From the IMG/VR virus record IMGVR_UViG_3300001213_000203, positions 1-24,869 of that record: 24,869 nucleotides of DNA; one strand, given 5' to 3'. Below are positions 2,586 through 24,869 of the stretch, piece by piece. Positions within the stretch are counted from its first letter, which is position 1. Each line of letters begins with the position of its first letter. A program made the translations under genes and the position numbers. The notes under the pieces are model-generated. The model ran no database searches. It was not told the origin of the DNA and was given only the letters and a program-made list of their open reading frames with translations. Source of the DNA: a virus.

Positions 2586-3644
2586 TTAATACGGGTTGTT
2601 GTTCAAAAAACCAGACCCCGAAAGGTATCGCTTCCACGCCATGATCCCGAGACGATTGTGATCATGTAGATTCATCAGACCGTCTCTCGATGCATTGGCA
2701 TGTTTCAAAAGAGTAATCCCTTTGATTGTGATATCTCCCGCCGAATCTGAATCAGCCTTCCAATAATCAGGAACCCATCTAATTGCACGACTTGTGACTG
2801 TTGGAACCCCTGTCGCAACCCCATCAGCTGTCACCTGATTGAAGCTTTCCGTATGACTTGCCTGGATCAGAAGATTCATTGATCCAATAAACCTTCGGAA
2901 AGCGGGCCATGGCGCCCATGCAAATTCCTTGTACACACAAAATGGATTTCTCTCGATTGCGCGTTTTGCAGCTTCCCTGATGGTCTTCCCATCTCTTTCA
3001 TCCCTATTGGAATTAAGCCAGATCTCCGTGTGAGCCTTTAGGCTTTGAGCAATCCCAATAGCGCCTGCAACGCCTGTCATGACATTTTTCTGGGCCCGTG
3101 GGGCTCCAAAGATTCCTATTCGAAGCACTCCACCATCCCACAGTGGTCTTTGCGTCAGAGCCATTTCATCAAGGTAATAGAGATTTGGAAGATATGTGCA
3201 CATTGACTGATAGGAATCCTTGATCCAATTGCAGAATTCGACGCTATTTCCAGCTGCATGGACATTGTGACTTGATTGCTCGAGCCCCAAAAGATCAATC
3301 ATCTTGGTAATGGCTTCCGGCTCAGTTTGAAGGAACCCGACATTCGAATGGCATGTTACCGAGAACTGAACATTTTGATGATTGAAAGCAAGAGTCTGAA
3401 GTTCAATTAAAGGAACCCAAGGTGCTTGAATTACCAAATGAGTCACATCTGGATTTTTGACGATGAAATCATCGATTTCTTGTGAGCTAATCACAGGGAT
3501 CATGGTCGCCTTAATGTGATGCTGGATCAGGGTTTTCATCGTGTTTACAGCACAGACTCCAAGTCCCTGATGACTACTGGTTGAATCTCTTGTGCTTCGA
3601 TAGGCAATTGCGACTTTGACACTGTTCAAATCGAATAATGGCAT
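2586..3644 (-). CDS. GT-B fold glycosyltransferase (GT4-like)
   Basis: A 352-residue protein with two Rossmann-like halves. The N-terminal half has strands such as VTHLVIQAPW and VQFSVTCHSN. The C-terminal half begins near residue 174 with LRIGIFGAPRAQKN, the usual start of the donor domain in GT4 enzymes. It continues to HTESFNQVTADGVATGVPTVTS (264-285), corresponding to the family's E-x7-E donor-binding motif. Here the second acidic residue is Asp (E266, D274). No signal peptide is seen, so it should act in the cytoplasm. The start is supported by AGGGGATCAA before the ATG. Lying just upstream of a small protein and a UDP-sugar dehydrogenase, it probably transfers a sugar to a surface glycan, a virion component or DNA. 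The acceptor cannot be told from sequence. Confidence 0.8.
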   Translation of the reverse strand: MPLFDLNSVKVAIAYRSTRDSTSSHQGLGVCAVNTMKTLIQHHIKATMIPVISSQEIDDFIVKNPDVTHLVIQAPWVPLIELQTLAFNHQNVQFSVTCHSNVGFLQTEPEAITKMIDLLGLEQSSHNVHAAGNSVEFCNWIKDSYQSMCTYLPNLYYLDEMALTQRPLWDGGVLRIGIFGAPRAQKNVMTGVAGAIGIAQSLKAHTEIWLNSNRDERDGKTIREAAKRAIERNPFCVYKEFAWAPWPAFRRFIGSMNLLIQASHTESFNQVTADGVATGVPTVTSRAIRWVPDYWKADSDSAGDITIKGITLLKHANASRDGLMNLHDHNRLGIMAWKRYLSGSGFLNNNPY

Positions 3645-4354: not shown

Positions 4355-4629
4355 GGTTTGACTCCTTCTTTTGTGGAACCGACAGAGGTCGGGTTTTCGA
4401 GTTCCTTTTGGATTTTATCTAAAGCCTGATCTTGTTTTTCAATGGAGTCTCGATCATTCACCGAAATGGCTCCATCTCCTTGATGATCGGAAAGGGCCTG
4501 ATTCTCGGCATTGATCGCATCAGTCTTCTCTTGTTGTCGTTTGGCCCACCAATTTATGCCCAAAGAGACTATCTGACCGAGCCACGGGATCTGAGCAAGA
4601 AAGTTGGTGATGACCGCGAGAAATGCCAT
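4351..4629 (-). CDS. Small membrane-anchored protein, possible inner-membrane spanin
   Basis: A 92-residue product with one N-terminal hydrophobic segment (about 3-28, ending in WWAKR) followed by a charged, glutamine-rich helical stretch (29-80) likely to form a coiled coil. This layout matches inner-membrane spanins (Rz-like), which bridge to an outer-membrane lipoprotein at lysis. The preceding gene encodes a lipoprotein and the two overlap as TAATG. It is smaller than most Rz proteins, and the partner lipoprotein is much larger than a usual o-spanin, so this remains a guess from topology and order. Confidence 0.5.
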   Translation of the reverse strand: MAFLAVITNFLAQIPWLGQIVSLGINWWAKRQQEKTDAINAENQALSDHQGDGAISVNDRDSIEKQDQALDKIQKELENPTSVGSTKEGVKP

Positions 4630-5471
4630 TACTTGGGCCCTCCGACATATTGAGGAATGTCATATGGAATGACGGTCAATTTTCCCCGTCGATAGGGTTT
4701 TGCCATTTCCATAAATTCGATCACACACTCTTTATTCGGAACTAGATATTCAAACAAGGTATGGGCTTCATCCAAAAAACGCCCTTCGCATTGGTCGTGA
4801 ATCTTTGAAGGCTGACAATTTGAGTTATTCAAAGGGTCACATTCGCCCCCGGTTTTTGGATCTTGATTGGATTGTGGGGCAATCATGACTGTAGACTCGA
4901 ATTTGATTCTTTCAATGAGTCCTATCTGAGTATGGCAAAGAGCGGTCCCTACAGCTGATCCAGATGCCCCATTGCAGATATTTGTCGCCGGCAATTGAAA
5001 TTTGTCGTTATGAAAGTCAACAGCCCCACAGGTGACTGGACTTGATCCAACTTCACTCGAAAAAGCACAAAAACGAGCTATGCAATTTCCATCATCTTCA
5101 ATTCCGGGAGATTGATTGTACATCCATTGAGCTCGTCTTTTGGGCGTGAGCCATTTGAACAGAGGATTGAAAGTGATGAAATCCTGGACCTTATCTGATC
5201 GATGACATGTCTTGATTGTGAAATAGTTTATATCGACTGGGCTTTCGACGATGATCTCATGGGTCTTTGCAGACGATCCAATAGCAATCCCCGTGAATTC
5301 GCGACCGTCGAGCCAACCGTGAAGCGTGAGCTCAGTCTTAGGTTTTGTGGATTGAACGCTCTGAATGGATCCTGTCGTACAAGACAAAAGAGAGACAAGG
5401 CAGATCGCAAGTAGCGACCCGCCCAAAATCAAAATCTCTCGAAGTTCACGTTTTGAAAATCTGATTTTCAT
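4629..5471 (-). CDS. Cysteine-rich predicted lipoprotein (280 aa)
   Basis: The N-terminus is a lipoprotein signal: basic MKIRFSKRELRE, a hydrophobic core (about 13-29), and a lipobox ending LLSC with Cys at 31. The mature part has ten more cysteines, including TCHR, ARFC, NICNG and ALCHT, so up to five disulfides could form in the periplasm. I do not recognise the fold. The ICNGASGSAVG stretch recalls a serine-protease-like turn but no full triad can be made out. No clear ribosome site precedes the start (stop of the upstream gene at 5474), suggesting translational coupling. It lies between small membrane proteins and is followed by a spanin-like gene. A lysis role, a superinfection-exclusion lipoprotein or a prophage-encoded surface protein are all possible. 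Confidence 0.65.
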   Translation of the reverse strand: MKIRFSKRELREILILGGSLLAICLVSLLSCTTGSIQSVQSTKPKTELTLHGWLDGREFTGIAIGSSAKTHEIIVESPVDINYFTIKTCHRSDKVQDFITFNPLFKWLTPKRRAQWMYNQSPGIEDDGNCIARFCAFSSEVGSSPVTCGAVDFHNDKFQLPATNICNGASGSAVGTALCHTQIGLIERIKFESTVMIAPQSNQDPKTGGECDPLNNSNCQPSKIHDQCEGRFLDEAHTLFEYLVPNKECVIEFMEMAKPYRRGKLTVIPYDIPQYVGGPK

Positions 5472-6289: not shown

Positions 6290-7402
6290 TCAGAATTTTT
6301 CTATTGCCACACCAATTCCAGATCCACCTGTTCCTCCACTATAACCTCCACTAGCTCCGGCACCTGAAGTTCCAGCGGCACCGATGACATATGGATAGCT
6401 TCCCGATGGTGATGGAATCGAAGCAAAAATGAATCCTCCGGCACTTCCTCCGGTTCCTCCGGTATTTCCGATCACTCCGGTCCGAACGACTGTTCCACCG
6501 CCGCCGCCACCTGATCCTGAATTAGTGGCACCATTGGTTCCGAGTGCTGAGACTTGTCCACCGCCGCCGCCGCCCCAAGGGCCTGATGCTCCACTTCCAC
6601 CGCCCGCATACCAATTGGTAACTCCACCATCGAGAGTGTCTGGAACAGTCCCGGTTCCTCCGGGTAAAGCAATCGTTGTAAGTGCAGGAGAATTGACTGT
6701 AACGGTCCCTCCGGCTGTAGCTGGAGATCCAGCTGCTCCTCCGCCGCCGCCGCCATTGGCGATCAATAGAGATGTTCCAAAGGTTGAATTACCTCCGGTT
6801 CCACCTGCGCCGCCTCCTGAAATAGCGCCGCCGCCGCCGCCGCCTCCACCAACAAGATAAACTTGAGTCTCAACAGGTTTTCGAAATGCATAAAAAGTAA
6901 GCGTTGCATCGCCTGTTCCACTTGATTTCGTGAGGACCCCTGAATATCCAGGATCACCTGTTCCAGTGGTTCGAAGAATTGTTCCTGCACTGATTGTCGT
7001 GACGACAGTGAAACTGAATGTCGAATTCGTGTAGACCGCCGATGCCGTCGCGTTTCCAGCGGCGATGAAAAAATAATAGGTCGTGTTGTGATTTCCTGAT
7101 CCTGAAAGATATCGATTGATCACAGGGCTCAACGGATAAACAGCCGCATAGATTTGAGAGAGAAGTTTTGCCGGTGTGGCATCATCCAAAATATCAGTAT
7201 TTGTCTTTTCACCGATATATTGAGCAAGTTGAGCCGTGATGTAACTTGATTGTCGAATGGCTTTATTGACCAATTTTGAACTTGCGACCCCTGGTTTATT
7301 TCCGCTCGTTCGGTCCGTCGAAGCCAAATATTCAGATTCAGTTAATAGATTCGTGCCAGTGTCTGTCGCGCAAAAATCCAGAAAATTATTCGTAATCGTC
7401 AT
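6290..7402 (-). CDS. Glycine-rich tail fibre / receptor-binding protein
   Basis: A 370-residue fibre. Residues 1-90 form a helical N-terminal module (NNFLDFCATDTGTNLLTESEY...NKAIRQSSYITAQLAQYIG) of the kind seen at the start of phage tail fibres. A beta-rich middle (about 95-180) follows. The end, from VYLVGGGGGGGG at about 184 to 370, is a long glycine-rich domain with many GGGG and GGxGG runs. The long glycine runs recall the adhesin gp38 of phages such as S16, where polyglycine helices carry the receptor-binding loops; homology is not shown here. It is preceded by AAAGGAG and comes last after the baseplate genes, the usual place for host-recognition genes. It probably sits at the baseplate or fibre tip. 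Confidence 0.75.
   Translation of the reverse strand: MTITNNFLDFCATDTGTNLLTESEYLASTDRTSGNKPGVASSKLVNKAIRQSSYITAQLAQYIGEKTNTDILDDATPAKLLSQIYAAVYPLSPVINRYLSGSGNHNTTYYFFIAAGNATASAVYTNSTFSFTVVTTISAGTILRTTGTGDPGYSGVLTKSSGTGDATLTFYAFRKPVETQVYLVGGGGGGGGAISGGGAGGTGGNSTFGTSLLIANGGGGGGAAGSPATAGGTVTVNSPALTTIALPGGTGTVPDTLDGGVTNWYAGGGSGASGPWGGGGGGQVSALGTNGATNSGSGGGGGGTVVRTGVIGNTGGTGGSAGGFIFASIPSPSGSYPYVIGAAGTSGAGASGGYSGGTGGSGIGVAIEKF
6495..6849 (-). repeat. Short GGC/GGT triplet tracts in the glycine domain
   Basis: Four separate tracts of the triplet CCG (plus strand), at about 6498-6511, 6561-6574, 6741-6754 and 6826-6843, encode the GGGG runs of the fibre. The uniform codon choice in the runs is striking against the AT-rich surroundings, and the triplet period means length changes would keep the frame. 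Confidence 0.65.
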
Positions 7403-18416: not shown

Positions 18417-19406
18417 TTAAATTCCGTCTGCGTATTGGATCGTTTCTGGATAAACCAATTCAAGTTCACCAAACGCCCACAAATATGGAGCCGTGAATCG
18501 AATGCCTTTGTAGTAAGCAGTCTCACGTCGGATAGGAACCATCGGGAATCGAACTCGACTTTCGTCATTGGTGTAAGCAACCATTCGATCCACTTGTCCA
18601 GATCCACGTCCTGCAAGCCATTTTATAGGCTGGATATCCAATTTAGCTCCGTTGACTCTCAAAGAGATCGAGTTGTCCTCGAGGAATGTCAAAATCGAGA
18701 CATTTCCTGCAGAGGAAACTTTTTGTGAAGCGATATATGAGAATTGAGCCGCCGGTAATCTCAACACTGAAGGACATACGGCAAAAGCTGAGGCCTGCCA
18801 TGTGCTATTCAAAAGTGTGTTTACGTCAGCCAAAATCTCATCAGGAGTCTTATTGATCCACAAAGGAGATCCACTCACTCCATTCGCAACGGGAGTCGCA
18901 GTCACCGTCGAATCATTCAAGAGTCCGGTTGCTCCGACATCAGATGATCCTATGTACACCATCTGATCGGTGTTCATCTGATAGATCATATTCAGAGAAT
19001 CCATCTTTTGAGCATCGATGGGCTGACCTAACAATTGAGATCTTTCGAGCTCAACAGAAGTATAACTAACTTCTCGAGCCATGAGTCTCAAAGGCAAAGT
19101 CACCTTTTGTCCATTGATGCTTACGCCTGGGATGTCATCGGTCTCACCGGAGATCCATGACATATTTCCACCGGCGCCGGGCGCCGAAACACCACCTGAA
19201 TTCTTCAAAGTACCCGCAGCTGCAAAACTGGATCGGATAAATGAAGTGCTTTCGTTAGACATCGTAATTCCACTTCGGAGTTTGATGTCTCGTCCCCAGC
19301 TTACTGAAACAAGGGGCTCATAAAGCCGCCGGTCCAGATTCTCAAGCTGGTTGACATAATAAGCGAGCGCGGAATCCTTTGTTTTGAAGCGGCCTATTCT
19401 TCTCAT
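18417..19406 (-). CDS. Major capsid protein, DUF2184-like
   Basis: A 329-residue protein of the DUF2184 group with an HK97-type fold. Pieces recognisable are the N-terminal arm (about 1-45), the segment TDDIPGVSINGQKVTLPLRLMAREVSYTSVELERSQLLGQPIDAQKMDSLN (90-140), YIGSSDVGATGLLND (about 151-165), and the C-terminal VRFPMVPIRRETAYYKGIRFTAPYLWAFGELELVYPETIQYADG. Such proteins form the icosahedral shell. AAGGGGA precedes the start. Lying after the scaffold and cement genes, it is in its expected place. No delta-domain cleavage site is obvious. Confidence 0.85.
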   Translation of the reverse strand: MRRIGRFKTKDSALAYYVNQLENLDRRLYEPLVSVSWGRDIKLRSGITMSNESTSFIRSSFAAAGTLKNSGGVSAPGAGGNMSWISGETDDIPGVSINGQKVTLPLRLMAREVSYTSVELERSQLLGQPIDAQKMDSLNMIYQMNTDQMVYIGSSDVGATGLLNDSTVTATPVANGVSGSPLWINKTPDEILADVNTLLNSTWQASAFAVCPSVLRLPAAQFSYIASQKVSSAGNVSILTFLEDNSISLRVNGAKLDIQPIKWLAGRGSGQVDRMVAYTNDESRVRFPMVPIRRETAYYKGIRFTAPYLWAFGELELVYPETIQYADGI

Positions 19407-19421
19407 TAAAATCCCCTTTTT

Positions 19422-19925
19422 TTATCTGTAAACTCGAAGTTCAGCATTTAAATCTGCATCCATTCCATCTGACGCCCATGTAGCTTGTGTCGAAGACAAT
19501 GCCACGTTGTTTCCAGGATCAGATGTAGCTTCGAAATCACCAATTGCTTTGCTTCCGGAAACGACAGTTCGAATATAAACAACTCCGCCTCGTGCAGGAG
19601 TTCCGACTTTACAAAGAACACTCACATAACCTCGAACCAATAAATTTTGAGGCTGAAGTGGATTTGGAGTCGTGTCTGTGAAACCTGAATTCAAATTCCC
19701 AGAAATTTCAGGTGCAGTCCGTGCAAGAACACCCGCAAAATCAGCGGCAACGTTACTTCCTTGCCATTGAGATACTCCACCTGAAGCGTATGCCACAGGG
19801 ATTCCGTAAGCTTGTGCATAAACTGAGGAGACGGCAATAAGCATCGCCGGCTCTACTGAACTCTCATCAGTTCTTGTGATGTCACCAACGACGCCCGCAG
19901 GTGCATTATAAAGATATGCTGGCAT
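19422..19925 (-). CDS. Structural cement protein, Gp24-like
   Basis: A 167-residue, beta-rich protein with the pattern of Gp24-like cement proteins: a glycine-rich N-terminus (NAPAGVVGDITRTDESSVEPAMLI), GIPVAYASGGVSQWQGS, FAGVLARTAPEIS, a strand region LVRGYVSVLCKVGTPARGGVVYIRT, and a final GDFEAT...AELRVYR. These trimers clamp neighbouring capsomers. AAGGAG precedes the start. It sits between scaffold and capsid genes, as in many phages of this type. Confidence 0.83.
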   Translation of the reverse strand: MPAYLYNAPAGVVGDITRTDESSVEPAMLIAVSSVYAQAYGIPVAYASGGVSQWQGSNVAADFAGVLARTAPEISGNLNSGFTDTTPNPLQPQNLLVRGYVSVLCKVGTPARGGVVYIRTVVSGSKAIGDFEATSDPGNNVALSSTQATWASDGMDADLNAELRVYR

Positions 19926-19936
19926 TGACTATCTCC

Positions 19937-20722
19937 TTATTTTTTTTGGTAAGCCTTAGCGTTAATTTCATTCATTTTCTCAGCGGTCATAATTCCAAAT
20001 GATTTTTGAGAAGACGAGTCATCATTCACACGTCTTGTATTCGAAAATTCATTTGAACGAGATTTTTTCAGAAGTTCCGATGCAGCAACGAAAAGAACCT
20101 CGACTTCTTTCTTGTTGTCGTAAGAAGGCGACTTACCTCCGGTCAAAGAATCAATGACCTTCTTACCATCCCTGGTCCCGTAAGCCGCCTTCAAAGCCTT
20201 CACTTTCAGACCTTTAAAGGCTTTGATTCCGGGAGCCAGAATCTCAGCGCGTGATTTTTCATCAGTCGCTTTGCTCATCTCTTCATCATGAGCCTTATCA
20301 TCGTCATCATCACATGTATCATCGTCATCTTCAGCCTCTTCTTCTTCATCATCGACTGAGACTTCTTCTTCTTTTGATTCTCTCTCAACAAGCTTTGCCA
20401 CTACCTCTTCGAGTGCTTTGATGCGGGAAAGAAGTTCACCTTCTCCTTCTGCATCATCATCATCTTTGGCTTTATCATCATCATCATCGTGTCCTTTTCC
20501 TTTAGATTCAGAGACACGTTCAGTTTCTTCATCATCATCTTTGGCTTTTGATCCAGCCAAAACAGAGACTTTTTCTCCAAGGTCTTTCACCATTTTCACT
20601 AATTCATCGAGGGCTTTTTCTTCATCTGCCACTTTGCCTTCAGATTTTTCTTCATCTTCGATCGCTTTATCGATGGTCTGAGAAAACATTGATTTCAATT
20701 TTTCAGCGAATTTGTTTTTCAT
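19937..20722 (-). CDS. Nested scaffold protein (internal start)
   Basis: Within the protease-scaffold gene, Met 181 at 20722 is preceded by AAGGGGA eight bases upstream, a ribosome site as good as those of many genes here. Starting there gives a 261-residue product beginning MKNKFAEKLKSMFSQTIDKAI, which is just the acidic, coiled-coil scaffold without the protease part. This is the arrangement of lambda C/Nu3. The site and position are seen; that both products are made is inferred. Confidence 0.5.
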   Translation of the reverse strand: MKNKFAEKLKSMFSQTIDKAIEDEEKSEGKVADEEKALDELVKMVKDLGEKVSVLAGSKAKDDDEETERVSESKGKGHDDDDDKAKDDDDAEGEGELLSRIKALEEVVAKLVERESKEEEVSVDDEEEEAEDDDDTCDDDDDKAHDEEMSKATDEKSRAEILAPGIKAFKGLKVKALKAAYGTRDGKKVIDSLTGGKSPSYDNKKEVEVLFVAASELLKKSRSNEFSNTRRVNDDSSSQKSFGIMTAEKMNEINAKAYQKK

Positions 20723-21262
20723 CGAAGAAATCCCCTTTTGGTCTTTGATTTTGAATGACGGTCCGGCTCTTCCTTCATCGACGAGAGCAACGTGGTTACC
20801 GACTATGTCAGTCTGTTCTCCACGTCCTTTCTCTATCTCGATATATTCCGCCTCATATCCACAAGATAAGCCTCGCATTCCACTCTTTACAAGGGAAATT
20901 GCGACGAGGTCCGTGACAAGAATATCAGCCACAAGACAATCTGAAAGATGACCTTCACCTCGGCGAATATTTTGAATTATGCCTTTTGCGAGTTCTTTCC
21001 AGTTTTCTGGTTCGACAAAATCTTCTGGATGCCGAATGGTAAAGGGCTTTCCTTCGAAGGAAGCAATTGTCTTCGGAGCAAAAACTTCTTTTTCAGATCG
21101 AACAATTATGACCTTACCATTCGAACCAACTTCAATCGGAGTTTCACCGGGACCATATTCATATTCCCCGGTTCGAGCGATAGGGACATCAGAACACAAA
21201 AGATATCCCTCGGGAGTTTCGCTGATATTTTCCGATAATTTAGTTGGTGCGAAATACTTCAT
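19937..21262 (-). CDS. Prohead protease-scaffold, DUF2213 family
   Basis: A 441-residue, two-part protein. Residues 1-175 are DUF2213, with TIRHPEDFVEPENW (75-88; probable catalytic His in RHP), VADILVTDLVAISLVKSGMRGLSCGYEAEY (111-140; Ser in LSCGY) and IVGNHVALVDEGRAGPS (153-169), an order of conserved elements like prohead proteases. Residues 181-335 are a very acidic, coiled-coil-like scaffold with several runs of four or five Asp. The rest (336-441) is basic, suiting capsid-binding. The fused layout suggests self-cleavage after assembly. AAGG precedes the ATG. It lies before the cement and capsid genes. Confidence 0.82.
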   Translation of the reverse strand: MKYFAPTKLSENISETPEGYLLCSDVPIARTGEYEYGPGETPIEVGSNGKVIIVRSEKEVFAPKTIASFEGKPFTIRHPEDFVEPENWKELAKGIIQNIRRGEGHLSDCLVADILVTDLVAISLVKSGMRGLSCGYEAEYIEIEKGRGEQTDIVGNHVALVDEGRAGPSFKIKDQKGISSMKNKFAEKLKSMFSQTIDKAIEDEEKSEGKVADEEKALDELVKMVKDLGEKVSVLAGSKAKDDDEETERVSESKGKGHDDDDDKAKDDDDAEGEGELLSRIKALEEVVAKLVERESKEEEVSVDDEEEEAEDDDDTCDDDDDKAHDEEMSKATDEKSRAEILAPGIKAFKGLKVKALKAAYGTRDGKKVIDSLTGGKSPSYDNKKEVEVLFVAASELLKKSRSNEFSNTRRVNDDSSSQKSFGIMTAEKMNEINAKAYQKK

Positions 21263-21269
21263 TCCAACC

Positions 21270-21929
21270 TTATTGCATCAAATGAGCCGCTTGAAGTTTA
21301 GAAAGCAAGGCATTGAAATCTGATACAAGTCCGGCAACGTCCGTTGCAGTTGAATCATTTTGGTGAGCCGCCACGTTTCCAGCGACCTTATTGAAAGCTG
21401 AAAGAACAGTATCAGCTGATGAAATGGTTCCAGTCCCAGCACTTAGTCCAGTCAGGACATTCGTCAAAACAGTTTTATTTTGAAGATCTCCTGAAAGCTT
21501 TTGAATCCCCTGAAGAACGGTATCACTCGCTGAGATGGTTCCGGCACCGGAAGTGAATCCAGTGAGCACATTGGCAATCACCGCTTTGCTTTGCGTATTC
21601 CCATCAATTTTTTGAAGACCCGCGATGACGGTATCGGTTCCAGCAACCGTTCCAGCGCCCGGAGTCCATCCAGTCAAAAGCATCGTGGGAAGCATTTTTG
21701 ATGAAACTGCAGAATAGGAATTCGCAATCGGAAGGGCTGTACTTCCAGTGATATTCGAAACAATCGTATTCGCTGAGATTTGAGTTCCACTGAGACCAAC
21801 AAGATTTCCACCCAAAACAGTATTATTCGATTGTTCTCCAAATTGATTCTTCAGAATCAAAGTCGGATAGGTCGAATAGGCGAGTGTCCCAATCGAAAAT
21901 GATATTAAAAGTGCGATGAAAGATTTCAT
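21270..21929 (-). CDS. Exported fibre-like protein with 37-residue repeats
   Basis: A 219-residue product with an N-terminal signal peptide (MKSFIALLISFSIGTLAYS) and then YPTLILKNQFGEQS at 21-34, shared with the next large fibre-like gene. Residues 84-187 are two full and one nearly full copy of a 37-residue repeat with core LTG...GAGTISASDTVLQGIQKL; similar repeats are common in phage fibre and cell-surface proteins. The C-terminal ~30 residues look like a trimerising coiled coil. A GAGGGGG site precedes the ATG. A signal peptide is abnormal for a virion protein, so it may be exported by infected or lysogenic cells. Function unknown. Confidence 0.68.
   Translation of the reverse strand: MKSFIALLISFSIGTLAYSTYPTLILKNQFGEQSNNTVLGGNLVGLSGTQISANTIVSNITGSTALPIANSYSAVSSKMLPTMLLTGWTPGAGTVAGTDTVIAGLQKIDGNTQSKAVIANVLTGFTSGAGTISASDTVLQGIQKLSGDLQNKTVLTNVLTGLSAGTGTISSADTVLSAFNKVAGNVAAHQNDSTATDVAGLVSDFNALLSKLQAAHLMQ
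21369..21680 (-). repeat. Tandem 37-residue repeats in fibre-like gene
   Basis: Residues 84-120, 121-157 and 158-187 align without gaps on a 37-residue (111-base) period: each has LTG, then G(A/T)GT(V/I), then DTV(I/L), then (Q/N)K(I/L/V), then G(N/D). The third copy is partly diverged. The DNA similarity has largely drifted, so the duplication is not recent. Confidence 0.75.
21807..21869 (-). repeat. Conserved N-terminal block, copy in small fibre-like gene
   Basis: Encodes residues 21-41 (YPTLILKNQFGEQS, then NN, T, VLGG), at the same offset as in the large fibre-like gene at 24296-24358. The DNA copies are also clearly alike. Confidence 0.8.
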
Positions 21930-22009
21930 TTTGCCCCCTCGGGAAATTATCCGATATCGATAAACTCAGTATATTTATTTTTCTCCGGTCTGCAACCAAC
22001 TCAATCATT

Positions 22010-24418
22010 TTAAAAAGTACAGGCTGTGGATCCATCAACGGTTTTGACCCAACTAGACCCATTACAAACACAAAGGACATATGCACTGGTTAGGGATAAA
22101 ATTCCATTTCTTGCAGCTGAACAAGTCGGAGTGACTCCGGCACCCTGAACGTCGATTTGAGTAAGAGTATCTCCCATTTTCGTTACGACCGTCGAGACTG
22201 AAAGAACTTGTGAAGCAATCGGTGGAACAGAGATTTTATCAGCAAGGAGTGCGACAGTCCCCGTGGTTGTTAGATTGATCCCAGTTGATCCAAATGGTGA
22301 AGCTGAAAATTGCATTGTGTCGATGAACGTTCCATTCAAAGTCACATCAGCATTGAAGTTGGAATTGATAAATGTCCCTGAACAAGGGGCGAGCGAGCAT
22401 CCATGAGTCAATGTATTGGCAAAAACACCGCCTTGCCATTGAATCAGAGTCTGATCGAGACTTACGGCTCCAAATGTGAAGGTGTCATAGGCTTCAATAT
22501 AATCGCCTCCACCGGCATTTCGTCCTTTCCAGGTAACTGCTCCACCGATCCAACAATCTTGAATTACGACATTGGAATTTGATCCACCTATCGCCTGAAG
22601 ATCAAAATTGAGTTGAGTTGATCCTCCCAAATACAGACTTTTGAACGTGGTCCAGCTTGAACCTGTCGCCCAATCTGATGTTGGTTTTATGGAGTTGGTC
22701 CCTCCGTTAACTCGAAGATAGGCTGACCTATGACCATCACCAATGATGTCTGTATATGGAGGAATCAAGAGATCAGCGGTTTCGATGTAACGTCCCGGAG
22801 CAAGCCGAATCACCCAATGATGATCCTGATCAAAAGGACCCGTAATCGTCGAAAGAGCCTTCGAAGGAAGATGATAGGGATTCCCCACCGATCCATCTCC
22901 TGTTGTGTCATTTCCCCAAACAGCGACATAGATGGTTTTCAAAGTCAGGGACCCGACATTTGTCATCTTCGCATTGAACGTCGTCCAATCTGTGGATGAG
23001 AGATATCCGTTCAAACTTGAACTTGATGCCTGAATCGAAAGAGTCCCTGAAGACAGACTTAAGGGAGATGACGCGGAAGCCAATTGTCGATCGAGTTGAT
23101 ACTTAGTTGATCCAATCGAGAACCAAAGATGAGTTCCATCATATTCTTGAGCCCCATCATACACGAGAGGAGTCAGTGTCTGGGAATGAAGCTGAAACGA
23201 GGACATCGGAACAGGTGAAGCACCGGCACCTGCATTGAGAGTCGTTGCGAATCCTTGTCCTGTTCCTAGATAGATATTCAAGGCTTGAGCAAAGGCTCCG
23301 GCACCTGTCACAAGTGGAGATGCTGAACTGTAATGGATCACCTGACTAAGACTTGAGATCCCAGTCGAATTCGTGACGAGTGAGGGGACAGTCGCGGTGA
23401 TGAGTTTTAGATTCACTCCTGAATATGCTGCAGTACTTGAAACTGTGATCTGTCCCTGAACTTGATCCTGATTGTGGACGAAAGACACGGCTCCACCCAA
23501 AGCAATTGCTACATGGTCTGGATTATCAAGATTTTCAACTGAGACATCTTCGAAATAGATCGATCCAGCCCCGGAGACTGTCATGGCTTTCGTTGAGGTC
23601 GTTAGCGCAGCGGTGATTGCACAGTTATCAGCATTGAATTTTGATGCTGCATTCGAGTTCGAATAGATAACCGCATCTCCGAGACCCGCGAGACTATCCA
23701 TGTGAGTATCATCGAGTTGAAGATTTAGGGCGCTTGATCCTGAAATGGTCAAAACGGTTCCAGCACCGGCAAGATCACAATGATGGATATAGACGGTTCC
23801 GGCAAAATTGGCGGTCATACTTCCAACGATTGCAACCCCTCGAGACTCCGAGCATGAGAGGCTGACTCCTGCTTTCAAAGTCACATTTTCGGAATATGTT
23901 CCTTTGAAAATGATGACGTCAGATCCTGAACTTGCGACGGTGACTGCTTTTCCGATGGTCAAATAGGGATTCGCATAGGTTCCGTTTCCGGTCGTATCGT
24001 TTCCGTTTTTCGAGACATAGAGCGTATTTGTTATGCCGAGAGTATTCAGAGCCCATGCTCCGACGGAATTTCGACTTAGAAGTCCGATGACCGATCCAGA
24101 AAGCCCCGAGAGACTATCAAGTGCGAGGGTTCCGGTGGATGCTCCGGTTCCACCATTTGAGACACCGAGAGTTCCGGTGAGAGATACTCCGAATGTCCCT
24201 GATCCAGTAATCGGGGACCCGGTAACTGTGAACAAAGGGGGCATCGAAAGTCCCACATTTGTCACAGTTCCGGTTCCACCGCCCCCTCCAAATGTTCCAC
24301 CGAGAACCCAGTTATCGGATTGCTCACCAAACTGATTTTTCAGAATCAAAGTCGGGTAGCTTCCATATGAAACAAAACTCGAAAAAAGGATCAAAAACCA
24401 AATCGAGAATGAATACAT
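22010..24418 (-). CDS. Exported tailspike-like protein with two beta-helix domains
   Basis: An 802-residue product. It begins with a signal peptide (about 1-19), followed by the shared YPTLILKNQFGEQS block (21-34) and a glycine hinge. Next come fibre repeats ISGSGTFGVSLTGTLGVSNGGTGAST-like (70-95) and a first beta-helix (about 132-350), opening LYVSKNGNDTTGNGTYANPYLTIG. A linker has GYLSSTDWTTFNAK, a common phage fibre piece. A second beta-helix (about 496-700) starts IYVAVWGNDTTGDGSVGNPY. The C-terminus contains several cysteines (CSAARNG, CVCNGSSW, ACTF) suggesting disulfides outside the cytoplasm. The start at 24418 is used because the upstream extension has no site and would put the signal peptide inside the protein. 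The gene lies between head genes, unlike normal fibres. Confidence 0.72.
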   Translation of the reverse strand: MYSFSIWFLILFSSFVSYGSYPTLILKNQFGEQSDNWVLGGTFGGGGGTGTVTNVGLSMPPLFTVTGSPITGSGTFGVSLTGTLGVSNGGTGASTGTLALDSLSGLSGSVIGLLSRNSVGAWALNTLGITNTLYVSKNGNDTTGNGTYANPYLTIGKAVTVASSGSDVIIFKGTYSENVTLKAGVSLSCSESRGVAIVGSMTANFAGTVYIHHCDLAGAGTVLTISGSSALNLQLDDTHMDSLAGLGDAVIYSNSNAASKFNADNCAITAALTTSTKAMTVSGAGSIYFEDVSVENLDNPDHVAIALGGAVSFVHNQDQVQGQITVSSTAAYSGVNLKLITATVPSLVTNSTGISSLSQVIHYSSASPLVTGAGAFAQALNIYLGTGQGFATTLNAGAGASPVPMSSFQLHSQTLTPLVYDGAQEYDGTHLWFSIGSTKYQLDRQLASASSPLSLSSGTLSIQASSSSLNGYLSSTDWTTFNAKMTNVGSLTLKTIYVAVWGNDTTGDGSVGNPYHLPSKALSTITGPFDQDHHWVIRLAPGRYIETADLLIPPYTDIIGDGHRSAYLRVNGGTNSIKPTSDWATGSSWTTFKSLYLGGSTQLNFDLQAIGGSNSNVVIQDCWIGGAVTWKGRNAGGGDYIEAYDTFTFGAVSLDQTLIQWQGGVFANTLTHGCSLAPCSGTFINSNFNADVTLNGTFIDTMQFSASPFGSTGINLTTTGTVALLADKISVPPIASQVLSVSTVVTKMGDTLTQIDVQGAGVTPTCSAARNGILSLTSAYVLCVCNGSSWVKTVDGSTACTF
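24296..24358 (-). repeat. Conserved N-terminal block, copy in large fibre-like gene
   Basis: Encodes residues 21-41 (YPTLILKNQFGEQS, then DN, W, VLGG). It is the partner of the copy at 21807-21869, with both starting directly after the likely signal-peptidase site. Confidence 0.8.
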
Positions 24419-24437: not shown

Positions 24438-24869
24438 TCAATCCTCCGGCAAAACAGGATCTTGATAACACCGACAATTGGGGAAAGTTCCAGCATGTCC
24501 CGTTGTCCCATCACTCAATTTTGGAGGACTCGCATAGTCTACATACTTTCCATTCATTTCAGCATGAGATTCTCGTTCGGCCCCATCCATGGTCGTGCGC
24601 CAAATGTAACCTTGGGCGCCGATAGCTTTCGCTCTTGTCTCAACAAAGGATGAATTCGCCCTAGATGTTTCAGTACGAGCAATGAGGCGAGCCCTATTCA
24701 CGGCGACTTCCGTCGACATGCCCATCTGCTTTTTGAGCTCTTCGATTATTTCTGGATCGGGAAGGGCCCTCGTACCTTCGATAAAATGGCGTGCCGAGAT
24801 ATCTTGGGCACGAAGGCCTGCTTCAATGGGAATCGATTTGATCAAATCGACCTGTTCATTCAACAACTC
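24438..24869 (-). CDS. Head morphogenesis protein, Mu gpF/SPP1 gp7-like (5' end missing)
   Basis: The last 144 codons of a minor head protein; the start is beyond the right edge. The segment RARLIARTETSRANSSFVETRAKAIG (about 58-83 from the first visible Met) and the C-terminal core YIWRTTMDGAERESHAEMNGKYV...GTFPNCRCYQDPV are the conserved C-terminal signature of MuF-type proteins. These bind the portal and package with the genome. A portal gene is therefore expected immediately upstream, outside the window. The next gene starts 19 bases after its stop. Confidence 0.85.
   Translation of the reverse strand, partial: ELLNEQVDLIKSIPIEAGLRAQDISARHFIEGTRALPDPEIIEELKKQMGMSTEVAVNRARLIARTETSRANSSFVETRAKAIGAQGYIWRTTMDGAERESHAEMNGKYVDYASPPKLSDGTTGHAGTFPNCRCYQDPVLPED

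Follow-up and report, generated by a model that had tools for sequence, protein, structure and literature searches.

Why would a virus encode two proteins that appear to be exported from the cell in the middle of its head genes? This question is raised by the IMG/VR virus record IMGVR_UViG_3300001213_000203 (24,869 bases; we refer to this whole stretch of DNA as the window). Two open reading frames (ORFs) on the minus strand, which we call A and B, lie between a MuF-like head morphogenesis gene and the gene for a DUF2213 prohead protease. From the MuF end, the order of genes on this strand is MuF, B, A, the protease, a cement protein, and the major capsid protein (Table 1). Both A and B begin with a signal-peptide-like segment, and both continue with the same short block of sequence (the tag). 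Our tentative proposal, which we hold with somewhat less than even confidence, is that A and B are accessory head proteins: each would combine a tag that docks on the capsid with a displayed domain and an optional Sec signal, and the signal-bearing forms would be captured by virions at lysis.

A preliminary description of this DNA had stated that the same block, followed by VLGG, is found at equal residue numbers in both proteins. This was correct: YPTLILKNQFGEQS is identical at residues 21-34 of A and B, and VLGG is at residues 38-41 of both. Across residues 21-41, the two genes use the same codon at 11 of 21 positions, synonymous codons at 8, and codons for different amino acids at 2 (50 of 63 nucleotides are identical). 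Because the amino acids were kept while the codons drifted, the pair of tags is not a recent copy at the DNA level. The likeness of A and B is not due to chance either, as the block recurs ahead of the same protease in 29 further loci (in an eroded form in L056) and in L054. In a structure model for the tag protein of another phage (L013), the first two strands, both of them short, fall within the tag. The tag is probably a beta-hairpin.

A protein search and scans with the tag identified viral contigs that have one gene ahead of the protease, with the same tag and differing C-termini; a scan with tags alone yielded no additional genes. In a survey that did not depend on the tag, we located the neighboring protease instead and retained 80 of 410 viral loci, along with 42 loci from genomes. 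We considered frames of at least 80 codons in the viral loci and of at least 90 codons in the 42 genome loci and in five viral loci re-read for lack of a MuF motif. Our slot script was run on 79 of the 80 viral loci (L036 was omitted as a near copy of L034). The MuF motif was absent from 12 of the 79: five of these were re-read (L035, L038, L041, L060, and L071), six start at or near the protease, and the remaining one is L109. MuF and the DUF2213 protease flank an accessory slot, which may be empty or may contain a tag gene, a member of a second small family (MQTTTPKL...GRMVNEENEIHNVVD), or unrelated genes. The second family, which has its own conserved start (GRMVNEENEIHNVVD.YG) and is signal-free by eye, was seen in L055, L062, L070, L078, and L102. 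Re-reading five seemingly empty slots turned up one short tag gene, in L054. (This gene, at 4750-4977 of L054, encodes 75 residues with a signal, the tag, and then collagen-like repeats, and it was overlooked in the first reading of the slots owing to its length.) It had been suggested that fiber genes do not normally sit between MuF and the prohead protease, which does not hold up: head-fiber genes do occur in head modules, and this slot is occupied in many relatives.

The tag marks a single lineage of phages. In a tree of the protease with 73 rows, the 30 phages whose tag gene could be read all fall on one branch, as do 4 phages whose slot is cut (Shimodaira-Hasegawa-like approximate likelihood ratio test, SH-aLRT, 99). 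Presence of the tag requires one change on this tree, and 30 of the 30 readable rows on the branch have a tag gene, where the rows are ones that we picked, leaving out loci that were nearly identical to others and, from the protease scan of genomes, most named prophages. In a 45-row protease tree, with 16 comparison rows of our choosing and without L013 (whose protease is cut) or L018 (a copy), the tag branch had support of 94/95. The protease scan of named genomes gave the 42 loci mentioned above, of which one, from a Nitrospirota bin (L113), bears the tag; in a first scan of named genomes, 93 stretches matched and none were confirmed. In a sample of Nitrospirota, 2 of 395 genomes contained a relative at E = 1e-15, and both of these are loci that we had already found. 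No comparable slot gene was present in the five cultured relatives that we opened, from 480 records that match the capsid protein; the slot of one, Ab105-1phi, holds a single frame of 87 bases.

Are these proteins exported? We tabulated 31 tag genes (including L056, with its eroded tag), and L054 became the 32nd. A signal-like segment precedes the tag in 19 of the 32 genes, and the other 13 have none. Thus, the view that proteins with this tag carry export signals stands for A, for B, and for their signal-bearing relatives, and fails for the 13. We called signals with a simple rule of our own and by eye; the rule halts at the first permitted cut site, which often lies ahead of the one that we favor. 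Within the 31-gene table, the rule was passed by all 18 of the signal-bearing genes and by 0 of the 13 signal-free genes. Among 150 other ORFs from the same loci (with an ATG start, a ribosome-site-like sequence, and at least 110 codons), just 3 passed, and 2 of these are a stretch of the protease. The two groups are also separated by the peak of hydrophobicity over 10 residues: none of the 18 signal-bearing genes peaks below 2.2, and none of the 13 signal-free genes peaks above 1.7. Lysine or arginine is found within the first 8 residues of 18 of the 19 signal-bearing genes; by our reading, the exception is B, whose start lacks the usual charge. Shortly before the tag we read a cut-site pattern, with alanine, glycine, or serine at position -1 and a small or aliphatic residue at position -3. 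By the rule and by eye, then, the features recognized by Sec signal peptidase I (a charged start, a hydrophobic core, and small residues before the cut) are present, except for the charge in B.

Using the -3,-1 reading, the cut lies 4-5 residues before the core of the tag in most of the signal-bearing proteins, and 7-14 residues before it in L015, L017, L037, L061, and L113. The 13 signal-free genes begin with methionine and 3-5 residues and proceed directly to the core of the tag (a block like L-L-NQFGE). A ribosome-site-like sequence precedes these starts, and the stretch inspected offers no in-frame extension that is hydrophobic. Because the cut is near the core of the tag, the mature starts and the signal-free starts coincide. 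For example, the mature start of A would be TYPT-LILKNQFGE, as compared to M-SYPT-ILLKNQYGE in the signal-free protein of L013. Judging from these sequences, the putative signal is an optional third module ahead of the tag, and the forms that bear it would be exported and cleaved.

The preliminary description had viewed the tag as an export address, or as part of a modular export system. We reject this because 13 of the 32 tag genes have no signal. Also, sister phages differ in signal state, and one of the bodies is found in other phages behind various N-termini that lack a signal. The signal state requires 8 changes on the 45-row protease tree, where the starred branches force at least 4 changes for either group versus all other rows, and it also requires 8 changes on the 73-row tree. 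The sister phages are L090 and L050 (support of 99/89 on the 45-row tree and of 88 on the 73-row tree). The protein on the L090 contig (L022) is 55% identical to that of L050, and residue 2 of the signal-free protein aligns to residue 21 of the signal-bearing one. The proteins from L038 and L042, which have a different body in common, are 61% identical and also differ in signal state. Outside of the tag clade, two other slot genes (L098:4491-4982 and L135:4329-4994) have signal peptide starts by eye and have unrelated bodies, so the habit may be wider. L135 encodes several cysteines, and in a relative of it, L234, the signal-bearing N-terminus is a different one.

The domains behind the tag suggest what is being displayed. 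Downstream of the tag, A and B had been described as unrelated, with 37-residue repeats in one and two beta-helices in the other. The repeats of A start at residues 84, 121, and 158, and B has two starts of the form Y(V/A)..GNDTTG, at residues 134 and 497, so this difference is real. The first region of B is backed by Pfam DUF1565 and by a weak match to a xylosidase (E = 6e-4), and the second by its sequence only; DUF1565-type regions of this kind are probably beta-helices, as had been claimed. B also matches a tail-protein PHROG, and it has no match in cultured phages. A matches 55 records from cultured phages, all of them through its repeats or its C-terminus. Over residues 176-218, A resembles the ends of head-fiber proteins from cultured phages, with 67% over 43 residues for gp46 of Salinivibrio phage CW02. 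The end of A also matches gp45 of phage B2 in PDB entry 9D82 (E = 1.2e-3). Because this C-terminus is shared with head-fiber and capsid-decoration proteins from cultured phages, we favor a role in the virion.

The idea of a fixed N-terminus with interchangeable domains behind it was borne out by the tag genes of relatives. In the genes that we read, the tag precedes fiber repeats, beta-helix-like regions, other beta domains, or collagen-like repeats. The protein from L041 is laid out like A, with a textbook signal and 56% identity. A body of 230 residues is common to 16 relatives, and the model of L013 shows it as largely beta (mean predicted local distance difference test, pLDDT, of 77). The relatives with this body that we scanned had no convincing match in Pfam, PHROG, or PDB, and a PDB search with the protein of L007 found no match. 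The same body (VDSxNGNGLGxRSLK) is present in 50 further ORFs that we checked (from L166-L228), where the N-termini differ (for example, MANRNWASGGKIYSMHVKP). One of these 50 tag-less ORFs passes the signal rule (L183, where the hit falls on one beta strand of the body itself), and none looks like it has a real signal. (In L206, an ORF that we labeled as capsid-like by eye only is upstream of the body ORF.) That the tag marks one phage lineage, while the body moves between N-terminal modules, is expected of a docking tag with swappable domains.

How do A and B compare to known systems? The C-terminal pattern ATDVAGLV-DFNALL-KL-AAG-M is common to A, to gp45 of phage B2 (PDB 9D82), and to proteins of Klebsiella phage KB57, Salinivibrio phage CW02, and Bacillus phage 268TH002. 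In B2, gp45 is a trimeric decoration protein on the capsid (PMC11654681, in part). The "head fiber" genes of KB57, CW02, and 268TH002 follow the major capsid gene at a distance of one or two genes, and a fourth cultured head-fiber gene is beside lysis genes. The four cultured head fibers that we read (those of KB57, CW02, 268TH002, and Salmonella phage TR2) have, by eye, neither a signal peptide nor the tag; unlike them, A adds a signal, the tag, and the 37-residue repeats. The head fiber of phi29, gp8.5 (PF11133), has an N-terminal base on the capsid and a C-terminal fiber that protrudes (PMC6542822, in part). Its match to A is weak, C-terminal, and below the curated cut-off. Furthermore, gp8.5 has a large beta-barrel as its base, where A has a short tag, and the excerpts of that paper mention no signal peptide for gp8.5 (PMC6542822). 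In the head spike fiber of RcGTA, Rcc01080, a long, flexible fiber is anchored to the head through a short peptide at its N-terminus (PMC7296036, in part), which resembles the tag proteins by description, except that Rcc01080 attaches to a separate base protein. Also, Dec binds to P22 heads in vitro, that is, to finished heads, and the term "signal peptide" is absent from the main text of that paper (PMC7602432, in part). In the open-access literature, as judged from titles and the openings of abstracts, we found no description of head or decoration proteins that are exported with signal peptides. So, as far as we have seen, the head fiber is of a known kind, and what is new is that its signal is optional and its tag modular.

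In the proposed mechanism, the N-terminal tag would dock on the virion head and hold a swappable domain outward, be it fiber repeats, a DUF1565-type beta-helix, another beta domain, or collagen-like repeats. Where a Sec signal is present (A, B, and 17 relatives), it would direct the protein to the periplasm and would be cleaved off so that the mature protein begins where the signal-free relatives begin. The periplasm would hold a store of these forms until lysis, when they would bind to virions. We infer this capture of a periplasmic pool from the conservation of the tag with and without a signal: whatever the tag binds must be reachable in both cases, and released virions are the simplest partner that could be reached by both routes. 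It is possible, but doubtful, that secretion serves to stage decoration, with the head-fiber precursors kept away from assembling heads until the tag clips onto virions, and perhaps also onto sister cells or debris, at lysis, while other phages of the clade use the cytoplasmic route and lineages switch by gaining or losing the signal.

Several observations weigh against A and B being head proteins of this kind. Of the best 30 of the 55 phage matches of A, 5 are tail fibers, which match its repeats. A scores 20.4 against the Pfam head-fiber family (PF11133), under the curated cut-off of 24.6. The best PHROG for A (phrog_18880, E = 5.6e-12) has no assigned function, and head-fiber PHROGs match at 4e-3 and 3.5e-2, while a tail-fiber PHROG does better over the repeats (7e-7). 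B has no head-fiber match in searches of PHROG, cultured phages, or PDB. The structure model of A is poor (pLDDT of 42), fold searches with the body of L013 gave no clear solved relative, and the tag of A and two of the bodies had no match in 50,697 records of cultured phages. It would also be odd for a decoration protein to leave the cytoplasm before the heads are finished. Finally, signal state is partly clustered: the signal-free group requires 8 changes on the tree, as compared to a mean of 10.7 if shuffled, and 14 of 500 shuffles were as low. When signal state was mapped onto a poorly resolved, 16-row tree of the shared body, just 3 changes were needed, 1 of them forced; some of the scatter may therefore reflect slot genes that were transferred whole.

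If the signal-bearing forms are not parts of the virion, then they might act at the periplasm or the cell surface, where the displayed domain could mask receptors, alter adhesion, or block superinfection. This was the idea of the preliminary description, and it still applies to the signal-bearing forms, although the relation of A's C-terminus to head fibers favors a virion role. The signal-peptide features of 19 of the 32 tag genes would fit with it, as would the 10 cysteines of B, which would suit an oxidizing compartment, and the slot genes from L098 and L135 that are also signal-led by eye. The window encodes a UDP-glucose dehydrogenase as well, which makes it plausible that this phage changes the cell envelope. 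T5 Llp and lambdoid Cor, which exclude superinfecting phages, are small lipoproteins with signal peptides, and they resemble A and B in being phage proteins with an export signal. However, a lipobox cysteine just after the signal, as in Llp and Cor, is ruled out by the absence of cysteine from A and by the position of the first cysteine of B (residue 189). The cysteine content also led us to reject a need for disulfides as a common cause of export. Lysogenic conversion, which we also rejected, has no support: integrase and resolvase families gave no hit in any of the 10 records searched, all from relatives (these may be fragments, and the searches covered the relatives rather than the window). 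Moreover, unless there are two roles, a surface device does not explain why relatives without a signal, whose proteins would have no way into the periplasm until lysis, have retained the tag. A also ends in a head-fiber module and has no cysteine, and both genes are in the head operon. Gaps of 19, 80, and 7 nucleotides separate the slot genes and their neighbors, and A and B each have an ATG start with a Shine-Dalgarno-like sequence. We found no excess of promoter- or terminator-like sites in the slot, and no promoter-like site on its coding strand, using the sigma-70 consensus, which may not be that of the host. Without a promoter of their own on this strand, A and B are probably made together with the capsid, which fits better with a virion role than with early exclusion. 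Overall, a head fiber or decoration protein of the virion is more likely than a cell-surface device, which we consider rather unlikely.

Less likely still, the hydrophobic start plays no part in export: it might be inefficient, or it might remain uncleaved as a membrane tether (perhaps holding proheads at the inner membrane), with the protein joining the head in the cytoplasm, as its signal-free relatives would. This would be the simplest route to the head, and it would account for the lack of lysine or arginine at the start of B and for a segment that comes and goes while the tag stays. But 18 of the 19 genes do have the charged start, the -3,-1 pattern precedes the tag, a membrane span would call for a longer hydrophobic core, and a tether would not need to recreate the signal-free N-terminus. 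It is very unlikely that A and B are ordinary tail fibers that ended up in the head module by chance. The repeats of A do match a tail-fiber PHROG (7e-7) and tail fibers of Acinetobacter phages, and B matches a tail-protein PHROG. Yet the tail end of the window has its own fiber gene (6290-7402, minus strand), whose C-terminal half is extremely glycine-rich, and the position in the slot, the clade-specific tag, and the head-fiber C-terminus all point to the head.

Table 1. Features of the slot and its surroundings. Positions are within the window.
Feature	Position	Strand	Basis or remarks
ORF A, 219 amino acids	21270..21929	-	putative signal peptide, tag, three 37-residue fiber-like repeats, C-terminal head-fiber module
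A, signal-peptide-like segment, residues 1-19	21873..21929	-	likely cut AYS|TYPT by our reading; the scripted rule halted at an earlier site
A, N-terminal tag YPTLILKNQFGEQSNNTVLGG, residues 21-41	21807..21869	-	sequence comparison
A, three 37-residue repeats, residues 84-194	21348..21680	-	similar repeats are found in tail fibers
A, C-terminal head-fiber module, residues 187-218	21276..21371	-	match to B2 gp45, PDB 9D82
ORF B, 802 amino acids	22010..24418	-	putative signal peptide, tag, glycine-rich stretch, two DUF1565-like (beta-helix) regions, cysteine-rich C-terminus
B, signal-peptide-like segment, residues 1-19	24362..24418	-	likely cut SYG|SYPT by our reading
B, N-terminal tag YPTLILKNQFGEQSDNWVLGG, residues 21-41	24296..24358	-	sequence comparison
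B, first beta-helix-like region, from residue 134 up to the second region	22931..24019	-	DUF1565-like start
B, second beta-helix-like region, from residue 497	22013..22930	-	cysteine-rich C-terminus (Cys 766, 783, 785, 800)
MuF-like head morphogenesis gene, truncated by the end of the window	24438..24869	-	upstream border of the slot
DUF2213 prohead protease	19937..21262	-	downstream border of the slot
Cement/minor capsid protein	19422..19925	-	XM1 gp53 and E217 gp24/Pam3 gp6 families
Major capsid protein	18417..19406	-	family match

Other parts of the window also contain genes of interest. At 1558-2355 and 2586-3644, both on the minus strand, the UDP-glucose dehydrogenase-like gene adjoins an ORF without family matches that looks like a glycosyltransferase by eye, and the phage may alter surface sugars. 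At 4629-5471 (minus strand), a protein of 280 amino acids has a lipoprotein-like start (LVSLLSC) and many cysteines, and searches of Pfam and PHROG gave no match. On the strand opposite the fiber gene at 6290-7402, positions 6429-6860 form a long open frame, probably a mere shadow of that gene.

The heads of tailed phages are thought to be built in the cytoplasm. A family of head accessory proteins that gains and loses a Sec signal, while the mature N-terminus stays constant, would be a natural experiment in which close relatives travel through two compartments. This makes it testable whether virions are decorated from the periplasm at lysis or whether a head fiber has been re-used as a secreted coat for the cell. 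The tag itself may be a compact docking handle that is compatible with many domains.

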